Assembly (NCBI GenBank): GCA_012798695.1
Contig: JAAZMR010000012.1
Coordinates: forward strand, 1 to 63,451
Length of the DNA stretch: 63,451 bases
Origin: Bacillota bacterium
Lineage (GTDB): Bacteria; Bacillota; Limnochordia; DTU087
Reading direction: 5' to 3'
Below, piece by piece: positions 21,645 through 63,451 of this stretch (within the stretch, counting starts at the first letter, position 1; every line of letters begins with the position of its first letter). Under the pieces are notes generated by a model. It was not told the DNA's origin. It saw nothing but the letters and a program-made list of their open reading frames with translations, and ran no database searches. The position numbers and the translations under genes are program-made.

Positions 21645-21840
21645 GCGGTAAGGGACCGTTGCAGGGTTACCTTACGAGTACCGAAGGGTTTAAGCCCTAC
21701 CGTGTGCGTGGTCAATCTGACTATGTTATGAGCCAACACCATAACAAAGGGAGCCTGGACTCTGGCTGTGGCGTGTATGCCTCCATATGAGGACACATAA
21801 AGCAGTCAGGAGGGCACCCACCTGCCTGAGGCAGGTTCAT
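21645..21840 (+). ncRNA. ssrS: 6S RNA (RNA polymerase-sequestering RNA)
   Basis: A ~195-nt gene-free segment between aspS and tcdA. This is where Bacillus subtilis and many Firmicutes encode 6S-1 RNA (bsrA). It has its own promoter, G+C-rich paired flanks and a middle segment (ACCGAAGGGTTTAAGCCC, TATGAGCCAACACCATAAC, AAAGGGAGCC) that resembles Firmicutes 6S sequences. The 3' end carries a 7-bp hairpin, ACCTGCC/GGCAGGT with a TGA loop (21820-21836), without a T run. 6S RNA mimics an open promoter and binds sigma-A holoenzyme. The exact ends are estimated. Identification rests on locus, length and partial sequence memory, not on a covariance search. Confidence 0.72.
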
Positions 21841-21953
21841 CAACAGTCAGGAATAGCGGCATGGTGGGGATCATCAAGGCTAGGGTTTTCATCGGTCAGG
21901 ATGTCTGGCGGGTGGGAAGCCTAGCCTTATCTGTATTTCCGAAAGGTGCAGTG

Positions 21954-57093: not shown

Positions 57094-57519
57094 ATGCAGA
57101 GGAGACAAGCAAGGGAGGCAGTCCTTCAGGCACTATTTCAAGTCGATGTGGGCAAAGTTGCAGTGGATGATGCCATTACTTACGCGGTGATGTTCAATGA
57201 ATTAACTGGGGATGCGGAGGAGTTCTGTCGCTCCTTGTTCCAAGGGGTTATCGCTAAGCAAACCAGTATCGATCAAACCATTGAGCGTTTGGCCGTTGAT
57301 TGGAGCCTCCATCGATTGGGAAATGTAGATAGGAATGTACTGCGCATAGCTTTGTATGAATTGATGTATAGGGAAGATATTCCTGTAGGGGCGACTATTA
57401 ATGAGGCAGTAGAGATCGCGAAGGCCTTTGGGAACAACAATTCAGGTCGCTTCATTAATGGAATATTGGGCCAGTTCACCCGGGATGATGATCACGGGGG
57501 AGCCGAAAGTGAAAGGTAG
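57094..57519 (+). CDS. nusB: Transcription antitermination factor NusB
   Basis: A 141-residue all-helical factor forming the NusB-NusE complex at boxA for rRNA antitermination. Opening MQRRQAREAVLQALFQVDVG and C-terminal IPVGATINEAVEIAKAFG, RFINGILGQ are diagnostic. In OLE-bearing Firmicutes nusB heads the xse-isp neighbourhood. The end overlaps the next gene's GTG by 11 bases. Confidence 0.96.
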   Translation: MQRRQAREAVLQALFQVDVGKVAVDDAITYAVMFNELTGDAEEFCRSLFQGVIAKQTSIDQTIERLAVDWSLHRLGNVDRNVLRIALYELMYREDIPVGATINEAVEIAKAFGNNNSGRFINGILGQFTRDDDHGGAESER

Positions 57520-58885: not shown

Positions 58886-58949
58886 CATGCATATGGCACA
58901 GAGCAGGGAAGTTGTCATTTGGCATAGAAAACAGTAGCGGGTGAAGCAA

Positions 58950-60248
58950 ATGTCACAGATTCCTTTGGGAATAGAAGAACCAACCGCTGCCGGTCCGCCG
59001 GTTTATTCAGTTTCAGAAGTTACTCGCCTGTTGAAGCGGTATGTAGAAGGAGAACCATTATTTCGCTATATCACTGTCTGTGGAGAGATATCCAATTTTA
59101 AGCACCACAGCTCGGGCCACATGTATTTTGTCCTCAAAGATGCGCAAAGCAGTATTCGCTGTGTCATGTTCCGCAGTCATAATGGCCGTTTGCGTTTCCT
59201 CCCAGAGAATGGGCTAGAAGTATATGCTACAGGTTCCATCGGTATTTACGAAACCGGTGGTCTATATCAGCTCTATGTAGAGTACCTCGAACCGCGTGGC
59301 ATGGGCGATCTGCATCTGGCTTTCCAGCAGCTAAAGGATAAGCTCCAAGAGGAGGGGCTATTCGATCCGGCCAGAAAACGGTCGATTCCCTTTCTGCCTC
59401 GGCGAGTTGGAGTAGTCACATCGCCGACCGGGGCTGCTATCCGAGATATTGTCAGCATCCTCACCAGGAGGATGCCGGGGGTAGATATCCTGGTGGCTCC
59501 CGCCCAAGTGCAGGGCCGCGAAGCCGCTGCCAGCATCGTGGCTGCCTTAGAAGCTTTGACCCAGTGGGGAGAAGTGGATGTAATCATATTGGGCCGCGGC
59601 GGAGGTTCTTTGGAGGACCTATGGCCTTTCAATGAGGAGTTAGTAGCCCGAGCGGTTTACGCTTGCCCGGTACCGATTATTTCTGCTGTCGGGCATGAAA
59701 CTGATATCACTATCTGTGACTTTGTCGCCGATTTGCGGGCTCCCACTCCGTCGGGGGCGGCAGAGTTGGCAGTACCGGTGACCGCTGATCTGCAGGCAGG
59801 CCTAGGGGAAATGGAAACACGGCTGCATAGGGCTTTGCTAAGGGGCTGTCAGCACAAGCGAGAGAGGATCACTCATCTAGGGCGCATGCTCAAGAGTTAC
59901 AGTCCTGATGATATGATTAGGCAAAAACGACAGCGTCTAGATGAATTAACCCCACGGCTGTTGAGTGCTGTGCAGCGACATGTTGCATCAGAAAAACGTG
60001 AGCTAGAGATGGTGGTTCAGCGGCTGGATAATCTCAGCCCCCTTTCCGTTTTGACCAGGGGATACGCTATTGCTCGTGACAGCGTATCTATGGCACCGAT
60101 AGTTTCGGTTACGCAGGCCAATACGGGGATGGGAGTGGACGTGCTCTTGCAGGATGGAATTTTGCAGGTAGAAGTACGGCATGTTGAAAAAGGCGGTAAT
60201 CATCGGCAGGCGCTTGCACCGAATGCCGGAGAAGAGGGTGAAGATTAA
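58950..60248 (+). CDS. xseA: Exodeoxyribonuclease VII large subunit
   Basis: A 432-residue nuclease subunit (XseA). An N-terminal OB-fold (VYSVSEVTRLLKRYVEGEP, VCGEISNFKHHSSGHMYFVLKD) precedes the catalytic region (RVGVVTSPTGAAIRDIVSIL, VDVIILGRGGGSLEDLWPFNEE, VGHETDITICDFVADLRAPTPS) and a helical C terminus. Exo VII removes single-stranded ends. ATG 58950 is chosen (GGGTGA upstream); GTG 58941 is possible. xseA-xseB-ispA are closely packed, with 3-4 base gaps. Confidence 0.95.
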   Translation: MSQIPLGIEEPTAAGPPVYSVSEVTRLLKRYVEGEPLFRYITVCGEISNFKHHSSGHMYFVLKDAQSSIRCVMFRSHNGRLRFLPENGLEVYATGSIGIYETGGLYQLYVEYLEPRGMGDLHLAFQQLKDKLQEEGLFDPARKRSIPFLPRRVGVVTSPTGAAIRDIVSILTRRMPGVDILVAPAQVQGREAAASIVAALEALTQWGEVDVIILGRGGGSLEDLWPFNEELVARAVYACPVPIISAVGHETDITICDFVADLRAPTPSGAAELAVPVTADLQAGLGEMETRLHRALLRGCQHKRERITHLGRMLKSYSPDDMIRQKRQRLDELTPRLLSAVQRHVASEKRELEMVVQRLDNLSPLSVLTRGYAIARDSVSMAPIVSVTQANTGMGVDVLLQDGILQVEVRHVEKGGNHRQALAPNAGEEGED

Positions 60249-60251
60249 GCG

Positions 60252-60497
60252 ATGGGCGCTCAAAAAACGTTTGAAGAGAATTTGGCTGACTTGGAGAAGA
60301 TTATAGGCCAGCTGGAAAAAGGAGATGTCCCCCTTAGTGAGTCCCTCACACTGTTCGAGGAGGGCGTGCAGCTGATTCGCCTTTGTTCGAAACAGCTTGA
60401 TGCAGCTGAGGCGAGGATAGCGCAACTCGTGACCGATGAACAGAGCGGGGCAAGAATGGCTCCCTTTGATCTGGAGGGTGAAAGCAAAGGAGTTTAG
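60252..60497 (+). CDS. xseB: Exodeoxyribonuclease VII small subunit
   Basis: An 81-residue helical small subunit, with FEENLADLEKIIGQLEKGDVPLSESLTLFEEG spanning residues 6-37, which is the XseB signature. Starts 3 bases after xseA and ends 4 bases before ispA. Confidence 0.96.
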   Translation: MGAQKTFEENLADLEKIIGQLEKGDVPLSESLTLFEEGVQLIRLCSKQLDAAEARIAQLVTDEQSGARMAPFDLEGESKGV

Positions 60498-60501
60498 AGC
60501 T

Positions 60502-61401
60502 ATGATTCTAGAAAGATTCATGGAAGAGCATTTGCCAGGCATAGAAAGAGAACTAGATCAGTGTCTGCCTACCGAAGCGGCTTATCCGGAGCGACTGCAT
60601 GCATCAATGCGTTACAGTACCCTGGGGGGAGGCAAACGCCTACGGGGTTTACTGGCGGTGGCATCTACGGAAATGGTAAGCAAAGGCCGATCTGATTTGA
60701 CGCCAGCGGCCTATAGATTAGCTGCGGCTGTGGAGATGCTGCATGCTTACTCCCTGATCCACGATGATTTGCCTTGTATGGATGATGATGATTTTCGACG
60801 AGGGAAGCTTTCCAACCACAAGGTTTTTGGTGAAGCTTTGGCAGTATTGGCCGGGGATGCGCTTCTAACGGAGAGCTTTGCGTTGTTAGCCCAGCTAGAG
60901 GAACTGGGAGTGCCAGCCAAGCAAGTTACCAAGATTGTCAGGGAAATGGCTCGGGCCGGCGGCAGTCTTGGTCTTATTGGCGGACAAGTCGTAGACTTGG
61001 AGTCAGAGGGTCGCGTAATATCGGCAGAGATGCTAGAGTATATTCACACTCATAAGACGGGTGCCCTGTTTCGGGCGGTCCTGCGATGTGGGGCTATGAT
61101 CGGTGGGGCCGATGTCAAGGAACTACATGCTGTGACCAGGTATGCCGAGTGCTTTGGCCTATGCTTTCAAATCACCGATGATATCCTGGATGTGGTTGGT
61201 GATGAGGCCAAATTGGGCAAGAAGATCGGCAGTGACGCCGAGCAGCAAAAGATTACGTATGTATCATTATATGGGTTAGATAGGGCTCGCCAGCTTGCTG
61301 CCAACACCATGGAAGAGGCCAAGGCAGCAGTAGTTGAATTTCGGCCTGCCAGTGATATCCTTTGCCAGCTAGCAGAATTTGTGGTACAGCGAGACCACTA
61401 A
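60502..61401 (+). CDS. ispA: Geranyl/farnesyl diphosphate synthase
   Basis: A 299-residue trans-prenyltransferase elongating IPP/DMAPP to farnesyl diphosphate for lipid carriers. The first aspartate-rich motif is HDDLPCMDDDD (Asp88/89 to Asp94); the second is TDDILD (226-230). LGGGKRLRG (IPP-binding) and GGQVVDL are also present. ATG 60502 lies 9 bases after AAAGGAG. In OLE-containing Firmicutes ispA lies directly upstream of the OLE RNA gene; here a malic enzyme gene comes between. Confidence 0.95.
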   Translation: MILERFMEEHLPGIERELDQCLPTEAAYPERLHASMRYSTLGGGKRLRGLLAVASTEMVSKGRSDLTPAAYRLAAAVEMLHAYSLIHDDLPCMDDDDFRRGKLSNHKVFGEALAVLAGDALLTESFALLAQLEELGVPAKQVTKIVREMARAGGSLGLIGGQVVDLESEGRVISAEMLEYIHTHKTGALFRAVLRCGAMIGGADVKELHAVTRYAECFGLCFQITDDILDVVGDEAKLGKKIGSDAEQQKITYVSLYGLDRARQLAANTMEEAKAAVVEFRPASDILCQLAEFVVQRDH

Positions 61402-61497
61402 TGTGCTTTTGGTATGGGGTGGTTGTGTCTCCGGAAATCTACTAAAAGACTTACCCATGGCCCAATTCGACAGGGAATGGCGTTAGGAGGTAGCTCA

Positions 61498-62727
61498 TTG
61501 GATGTATATTCTAGATCACTGGATTTCCATAGACAACTCCAAGGAAAAATCGAAGTAGTAAGTCGAGCACAAGTAAATAATGCAGCGGATCTGAGTCTTG
61601 CTTACTCCCCAGGTGTAGCAGAGCCTTGTCGAAGAATTGCTGCCGATCAAGAGTCGGTTTACGATTATACCGGGAAGGGCAATATGATTGCTGTCGTCTC
61701 CGATGGCTCAGCCGTATTGGGGTTAGGCAATATCGGGCCAGACGCGGCCTTACCGGTGATGGAAGGCAAAGCGGTATTGTTTAAGCAGTTCGCCGGTATA
61801 AATGCAGTGCCGATCTGCCTTAATACACAAGATCCAGGCCAAATCGTAGAGATAGTAAAGAGCTTGGCTCCTACCTTTGCCGGGATCAATCTCGAGGATA
61901 TCAGTGCTCCACGGTGTTTTGAGATCGAAGAGCGGCTGCAGGCAGAGACAGATATGCTCGTTTTCCACGATGATCAGCACGGTACGGCGGTAGTAGTCCT
62001 TGCCGGCTTGATCAATGCCAGCCGGGCAGTGGGCAGGGACTTGCGAGACCTGAGGGTGGTAGTCAATGGAGTGGGTGCTGCCGGTTCCAGTATTGTTCGC
62101 CTCTTGCATCTGTATGGGGTACACCAGATCATCGCTTGTGACAAAGACGGGGCAATCTATTTGGGCAAGCCGGGGATGCATCCGGTTCATGCTGAGATCG
62201 CCAAGATGACCAACCTTGACCGGGAACCAGGCCATTTGGCAGATATTATCGCTGGGCAGGATGTTTTTGTGGGAGTGTCGGCTCCCAATATTGTGACTAC
62301 ATCCATGGTGCGCTCCATGAATGATGATCCGATCATTTTCGCTCTGGCCAATCCAGAACCAGAAATTACTGTAGAGCTCGCCTTGTCAGCAGGGGCCAAG
62401 GTAGTTGCCTCGGGGCGCTCGGATTATCCTAACCAGGTCAATAATGTCTTGGGTTTTCCCGGCATATTCCGGGGTGCGCTGGACGTCAGGGCAACAGTGA
62501 TTAATGATCGTATGAAAATCGCGGCCGCAGAGGCGATAGCCGGCCTAATTGATAAGAGCGAGCTGCGAACCGATTACATAATTCCAGAGCCTTTTGATCG
62601 GCGGGTAGTGCCCGAGGTAGCCACCGCGGTTGGCAGGATGGCGATAGAAACAAAAGCAGCCCGCAAGGTGCTTACCTCGCAAGAGCTTCATAAGAAGGCT
62701 CTATCCTGGATTGAGCACCAGGAATAA
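61498..62727 (+). CDS. NAD(P)-dependent malic enzyme
   Basis: A 409-residue malic enzyme oxidatively decarboxylating malate to pyruvate. It has LSLAYSPGVAEPCRRIA, YTGKGNMIAVVSDGSAVLGLGNIGP (substrate/cofactor entry), DLEDI-like acidic region (INLEDISAPRCFEIEERL), FHDDQHGTAVVVLAGL and the dinucleotide-binding VVNGVGAAGSSIVRLL. The length fits the small bacterial type. TTG 61498 is chosen since TAGGAGGTAG lies 6 bases upstream; longer starts add residues with no family match. It sits between ispA and the large structured RNA, replacing the usual direct ispA-OLE contact. Confidence 0.93.
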   Translation: MDVYSRSLDFHRQLQGKIEVVSRAQVNNAADLSLAYSPGVAEPCRRIAADQESVYDYTGKGNMIAVVSDGSAVLGLGNIGPDAALPVMEGKAVLFKQFAGINAVPICLNTQDPGQIVEIVKSLAPTFAGINLEDISAPRCFEIEERLQAETDMLVFHDDQHGTAVVVLAGLINASRAVGRDLRDLRVVVNGVGAAGSSIVRLLHLYGVHQIIACDKDGAIYLGKPGMHPVHAEIAKMTNLDREPGHLADIIAGQDVFVGVSAPNIVTTSMVRSMNDDPIIFALANPEPEITVELALSAGAKVVASGRSDYPNQVNNVLGFPGIFRGALDVRATVINDRMKIAAAEAIAGLIDKSELRTDYIIPEPFDRRVVPEVATAVGRMAIETKAARKVLTSQELHKKALSWIEHQE

Positions 62728-62789
62728 AGATGAAGCGTTGGCCAAGAATTGATGCAGTGGTAGCACCCTTTTGAGGGCTTTTGATGGTC

Positions 62790-62818
62790 TTGAGACTTTG
62801 CTGAGGTTATGATATAAT
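62790..62818 (+). promoter_or_regulatory. Promoter for the OLE-type RNA
   Basis: TTGAGA (62790-62795) and TATAAT (62813-62818) separated by 17 bp. The predicted start, near 62825, is about six bases before the terminal helix of the RNA at 62831, so the RNA can be transcribed independently of the malic enzyme gene. Confidence 0.8.
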
Positions 62819-62830
62819 TACCTCACCTGA

Positions 62831-63440
62831 GATAGGTGGCGCAGTATCCTAGTCGATACACCCGTTTTCCAAGACGGGCCTAAAAATCCGTCAATGGCAT
62901 ATCGATGAAGTCCCTGGTGGTGGCTTCCGACGCCCAGTTGGGGGCTGTTGCTGGGGGTTAAGACGATGGGGCGATCTGCAATGGCATGCAGGCGTTGACC
63001 CTGTCGTCGCGGAGACCCAAGTTCGTGGAGAGAGCCTACTTATGATATAGGATGACTACGGCTTGGGGTAAAACCTGCACGTGATACACTGTAAGTAGGC
63101 GTGTTGGGTGCAGTGTAGCCTGCCTTGCGTGGGGCAGATGGGATGGTAGGTTCAAGTCCTGATTCGAAGGCCAAGAGGATGGGCCCGATGCTACCTGAAA
63201 ATCGCCCTGCTAGAGAGGCTAGAAAACGGGGTTGGTCGTTGAGGAAATCTCCTAGGCTGTTCCTTAGGAAGCGGACTGGGGATTGCAGTGTGGACTAAGT
63301 GGTAATCCAGCCTTACCTTTGGTAACAAGGTAAAACGGTTGGAAAGGAGAAATCGCCAGACCGGCGACGGTCTGGAGAACCGTTGGGAAAACCTGCTGGA
63401 CCTGAAGCCACAATCTTTACTCAATTCGTGGCCACCTATC
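62831..63440 (+). ncRNA. ole: OLE RNA (ornate, large, extremophilic RNA)
   Basis: A ~610-nt gene-free segment. GATAGGTGGC (62831-62840) is perfectly complementary to GCCACCTATC (63431-63440), closing the whole region, exactly 610 nt end to end. Inside are nested helices: TCGATA/TATCGA (62853-62905) around CCCGT/ACGGG; GCCTACTTA/TAAGTAGGC (63034-63100); TTACCTT/AAGGTAA (63313-63333); AACGGTT/AACCGTT (63334-63384) enclosing CCAGACC/GGTCTGG (63356-63375). Size, terminal pairing, promoter and location downstream of nusB-xseA-xseB-ispA match OLE RNA, which binds membrane protein OapA (with OapB and OapC) and aids stress tolerance in Gram-positive anaerobes and alkaliphiles. Established knowledge places oapA immediately downstream, just beyond this window. 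Identity rests on locus and structure, not a covariance search. Confidence 0.83.
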
Positions 63441-63451
63441 ACTAATACAGG

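Follow-up and report, generated by a model that had tools for sequence, protein, structure and literature searches.

A full-length OLE RNA gene with its partner protein genes in an uncultured Bacillota lineage

OLE RNA has been reported in 2,822 Bacillota genomes (PMC11332333). Studies in H. halodurans and of Clostridium OLE structures have described a dimeric RNA that OapA holds at or through the membrane. This RNA uses a k-turn to bind OapC and its P13 to bind OapB, also binds bS21, and forms an RNP supporting stress and Mg2+ adaptation (PMC12265935, PMC12286853, PMC9723947, PMC11332333). Fernando and Breaker 2024 have described a full-length OLE class, as well as variants 1 and 2, which shorten or lack the P7 and P8 region (PMC11332333). 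The same study showed that OLE is anticorrelated with the CNNM/MpfA exporter.

Here, we analysed a window of 63,451 nucleotides, which is the entire contig C43 of a Bacillota genome in 130 contigs. The whole window was compared with Rfam 15 by cmscan, and OLE (RF01071) was found near its right end on the plus strand with 471.9 bits (E = 2.3e-135; gathering score 50), covering model positions 1-616 of 616. A permissive cmscan of 62000-63451 gave no competing RNA family; its only other match, sR11 (E = 0.54), was below its own gathering score, and another family was therefore rejected for this region. The first-pass annotation had named the region as OLE RNA and had pointed to the Rfam covariance model as the check, and this identity is confirmed by the full-length match without a rival family. 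It had also found no credible gene here, which holds on both strands, where the ORFs are spurious and short (at most 86 aa). The source genome carries one OLE copy by cmscan, and OLE was absent from 14 well-known control genomes in the same kind of scan. The features of the locus are as follows.

62790..62818, plus strand: sigma-70 promoter of ole, TTGAGA-17-TATAAT, extended -10
62820..63451, plus strand: OLE RNA, RF01071, full length by cmscan
62831..62840, plus strand: 5' arm of P1, GATAGGTGGC, perfect pairing and covariation
62873..62892, plus strand: P4 hairpin with conserved A-rich loop CCUAAAAAUCC
62904..62910, plus strand: GAUGAAG strand in J4a/5, putative OapC-binding k-turn region, assigned by position
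62929..62938, plus strand: P5.1 loop GCCCA
62978..62989, plus strand: P6.1 loop AUGGCA
63010..63016, plus strand: CGGAGAC segment in J6/7, proposed k-turn partner strand, putative role
63168..63173, plus strand: P9 loop with palindrome GGCC at 63169-63172, self-kissing dimer contact
63356..63375, plus strand: hairpin CCAGACCGGCGACGGUCUGG, likely the P13 region bound by OapB
63431..63440, plus strand: 3' arm of P1, GCCACCTATC, perfect pairing and covariation

The good promoter claimed earlier is indeed present. It matches 11 of 12 consensus bases, has TG preceding the -10 element, and is the sole such match in 63 kb, where 0.01 would be expected by chance. TATAAT with an upstream TG is conserved in relatives within and outside the family, and in those within it the box lies about as far from OLE as here. 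Taken together with P1, the promoter suggests an ole transcript of about 610 nt, at approximately 62825-63440.

The two ends of the RNA are joined by P1, in which GATAGGTGGC and GCCACCTATC form 10 perfect base pairs. The first-pass annotation had described this helix and had given the RNA a length of 610 nt; the helix is real and measures exactly 610 nt between its outer edges (62831-63440), while the Rfam match itself extends to the window's final base (63451). When the 40-nt ends were shuffled, any 10-bp match between them arose in 134 of 200,000 shuffles. We then built an alignment of 48 OLE sequences, drawn from this class and other Bacillota. Two-sided compensatory changes occurred in nine of the ten P1 pairs, and 92.1% of the P1 cells were paired. 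There were 130 two-sided changes in P1 (shuffles, 42), and the covariation score was 0.65 (shuffles, 0.25). The P1 columns are unpaired in the Rfam model, so the alignment supplies strong covariation for a helix that the model omits. Because a P1 in domain 2 is already spoken of in the literature (PMC12265935), we take this result as support for a known helix and not a new one.

For the Rfam pairs and P1 together, 86.8% of cells were paired in the 48 sequences, compared with 73.3% in shuffles. Two-sided change was seen in 123 of 169 pairs (96 in shuffles) and in 1,336 cells (493 in shuffles), and the observed covariation values were reached by 0 of 500 shuffles. When partners were slid, pairing was 39-46%. 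This slid control is the firmer one, because the shuffle control ignores relatedness. The predicted base-paired structure of OLE is backed by covariation in relatives. In the window sequence itself, 143 of 159 Rfam pairs are standard, and 18 uninterrupted helices of at least 5 pairs follow the Rfam structure when G-U is allowed. Nine of these are pure Watson-Crick helices of 5-8 bp, which agrees with the earlier count of at least five further perfect helices of 5-9 bp.

We compared the window RNA with the OLE RNAs of C. acetobutylicum and H. halodurans, which have been solved or experimentally studied. Like them, the window OLE, from an uncultured Bacillota lineage, has the A-rich loop of P4, the P5.1 and P6.1 loops and GGCC in the P9 loop, together with the putative k-turn strands and the likely P13 hairpin. 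The P4 A-rich loop is an A-A dimer contact in the published structures (PMC12265935, PMC12286853), and the P5.1 and P6.1 loops are published kissing partners (PMC12265935). The GAUGAAG strand, invariant or nearly so in the 48 sequences, is assigned by position to J4a/5, whose k-turn has a role in OapC binding (PMC9723947, PMC12286853). The GGAG of the J6/7 segment is invariant in all 48, and its proposed role is taken from PMC12286853. The likely P13 hairpin, helix 22 in the covariation analysis, has 8 perfect Watson-Crick pairs, and P13 is the OapB binding site (PMC9723947). The window RNA keeps the sequence elements for dimerisation and for the OapA, OapB, OapC and bS21 interactions of published OLE. 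Compared with the Rfam model, it differs in the hairpins near 63041 and 63095, which carry small insertions of 8 and 11 nt.

The P9 loop is palindromic in 46 of 47 aligned sequences (GGCC in 42, UGCA in 4), and the lone nonpalindromic sequence looks like an alignment offset within a GC-rich palindrome. GAUC and AGCU are given as alternative P9 palindromes in the structure paper, and UGCA is not among the forms named in the part of it available to us. UGCA therefore adds one more compensated variant of the loop through which the dimer kisses. Its four carriers (L044, L047, L060 and L076) may be one clade, and a single event may perhaps account for them. A Syntrophomonadaceae OLE (L073:1726-2316) scores 466 bits and yet is without the distal P9, including the kissing loop.

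The genes upstream of ole include one for a TsaD-related protein and the following.

57094..57519, plus strand: nusB, from reading of the translation only
58941..60248, plus strand: xseA, TIGR00237, 484.5 bits
60252..60497, plus strand: xseB, TIGR01280, above cutoff
60436..61401, plus strand: ispA, farnesyl diphosphate synthase, NF045485, 355 bits (cutoff 275)
61414..62727, plus strand: malic enzyme, directly upstream of ole, PF00390/PF03949 and NCBIfam malic enzyme

The locus had been placed downstream of nusB-xseA-xseB-ispA. These genes do lie upstream, but the immediate neighbour is the malic enzyme gene and not ispA. The malic enzyme gene also stands between ispA and ole in several genomes of the family, and ispA is adjacent in L014 and L016. 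In the window, 6S RNA (RF00013) was also found at 21691-21874 with 100.4 bits.

On the right side, the last 71 bases of the window (63381-63451) are identical to C111:1-71, and contig C111 continues with oapA (73-729) and then dxs. The start of oapA is 2 nt beyond the window edge and 13 nt downstream of P1. It had been expected within about 300 bases past the right edge; it is there on the overlapping contig, though with its start only 2 nt past the edge. The proposed ole-oapA junction rests on the 71-base overlap and on the same order in relatives. The shared contig end looks like an assembly-graph split. A genome lacking oapA was considered and rejected, since the contig merely ends there and the gene is on C111. 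Contig breaks within OLE or at its end also occur in the drafts G008, G009, G019, G037 and G044.

The partner proteins were then sought in the whole genome. OapA has 218 aa and shares 80% identity with the ORF that immediately follows OLE in another member of the family. Its Asp pair D115/D119 (spacing 4) is invariant in 10 OapA sequences, and H. halodurans OapA has D100/D104 with the same spacing (PMC9723947). A simple hydropathy scan gave two strong membrane segments, compared with the four transmembrane helices expected of OapA. OapB and OapC had been named as partners to look for elsewhere in the genome, and both were found by similarity to solved structures and by locus. OapB (92 aa; map-oapB-infA) has 'OLE-associated protein B' (7k9b) as its best solved match, with E = 7.9e-7 and a moderate 32.7 bits. 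OapC/YbxF (89 aa; rpoC-ybxF-rpsL) has YbxF as its best solved match (E = 1.3e-15) and retains the GTK-motif glycine. YlxQ was rejected as OapC, the two L7Ae proteins being distinguished by locus (upstream of infB versus rpoC-ybxF-rpsL) and by best family. In Pfam and NCBIfam no family matched OapA or OapB here, so the two were identified from synteny, from solved structures and from their relatives. The presence of both oapB and oapC is common, though not universal, in genomes with OLE. The genome also encodes bS21 (rpsU).

No PF01595 match to a CNNM (MpfA-type) Mg2+ exporter was found in the genome. Among 61 genomes, a strong CNNM was present in 6 of 7 without OLE and in 23 of 54 with OLE. 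Both results are in line with the published anticorrelation (PMC11332333).

The locus accords with the full-length class of PMC11332333 in its RNA (the whole model and all helices, including the P7/P8 region), its setting (oapA directly downstream, and the usual xseA-xseB-ispA ... dxs order) and its genome (oapB and oapC present, CNNM exporter absent). It differs by the malic enzyme gene interposed between ispA and ole. The window OLE is a fresh full-length example of an already known RNA class, of the ordinary kind and with clean evidence. In the class as a whole, OLE was detected in 64 of 73 genomes (~88%). A scan with OapA gave 42 relatives in named genomes, with OLE just upstream in 40 of the 40 loci checked; the nearest OapA-bearing relatives are Bacillota metagenome-assembled genomes. 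At G069:C53:100592-100886, an OLE match of 295 bases spans both model ends with 205 bits; it may be a much shortened OLE or reflect a gap in the assembly.

The relative G051 has two full OLE genes, one in the standard operon and the other on its contig C52 (L079, G051:C52:6500-11500), at C52:8354-8992 on the minus strand. The flanks of the C52 copy are unrelated to the operon, with a divergent cation-efflux gene upstream and LPG-synthase-TM and CNNM (MpfA-type) genes downstream, and oapA is not beside it. It carries a separate promoter (TTGCCG-17-TATAAT), and its P1 is longer and likewise compensated. Because its nearest OLE is G051's own operon copy (91% identity over 618 bases; next best OLE, 81%), the sequence comparison suggests a recent duplication, in a draft genome whose contig could be misbinned. 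This reading concerns G051 and not the window's own ole. It is possible, if somewhat doubtful, that OLE can duplicate and leave its operon, and that two different OLE RNAs in the same cell could pair into mixed dimers or share out the work of metal homeostasis.

No intrinsic terminator was found in the 13-nt gap between P1 and oapA, so that ole and oapA are likely cotranscribed, and the region might be a 5' leader (cis-regulatory RNA) of oapA that would regulate the downstream membrane protein gene, instead of a free-standing RNA. We consider this very improbable. The length, conservation and closed P1 match OLE, H. halodurans OLE is an abundant RNA that binds OapA within an RNP (PMC12265935), and in one relative a full OLE gene has no oapA next to it. 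A slightly smaller chance is given to a degenerate or relic copy that no longer works. It could be read from the 16 of 159 Rfam pairs that are nonstandard in the window sequence; however, these mismatches lie mainly in helices 6, 7, 11 and 12, which vary in all relatives, while the invariant bases and the promoter are intact and no partner is missing. As to the short ORFs, the chance that the conservation stems from an unannotated short protein is negligible: across the 48 sequences, compensatory changes run along the whole length and indels are not multiples of three, by which a protein-coding region is rejected. We are almost certain that the region is the ole gene, specifying a stress-response RNP RNA with OapA, OapB and OapC as partners and a mechanism as published.

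By analogy with the H. halodurans and Clostridium work, we infer the transcription, dimerisation, membrane binding and phenotype of the window OLE. The gene would be transcribed from its own sigma-70 promoter, probably together with read-through from the upstream operon, into an RNA of about 610 nt closed by P1 between its ends. By homology, this RNA would have two domains, and its dimer contacts would be the A-rich loops of P4, the kissing loops of P5.1 and P6.1, and the palindrome in the P9 loop. OapA, encoded directly downstream, would anchor it at or through the membrane, where OapC (at the k-turn), OapB (at P13) and probably bS21 would bind. The complex may work in stress and Mg2+ adaptation.

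The first-pass annotation had judged a new genome valuable for its covariation. It does add a member and covariation, and its value is moderate only, as OLE is already known from the 2,822 genomes of PMC11332333. OLE is among the largest conserved bacterial RNAs without an established biochemical activity. The P1 covariation and the UGCA form of P9 refine the OLE model and do not reveal the function. The locus adds a clean full-length OLE, accompanied by every partner, from a class that is uncultured and in which OLE is nearly universal.
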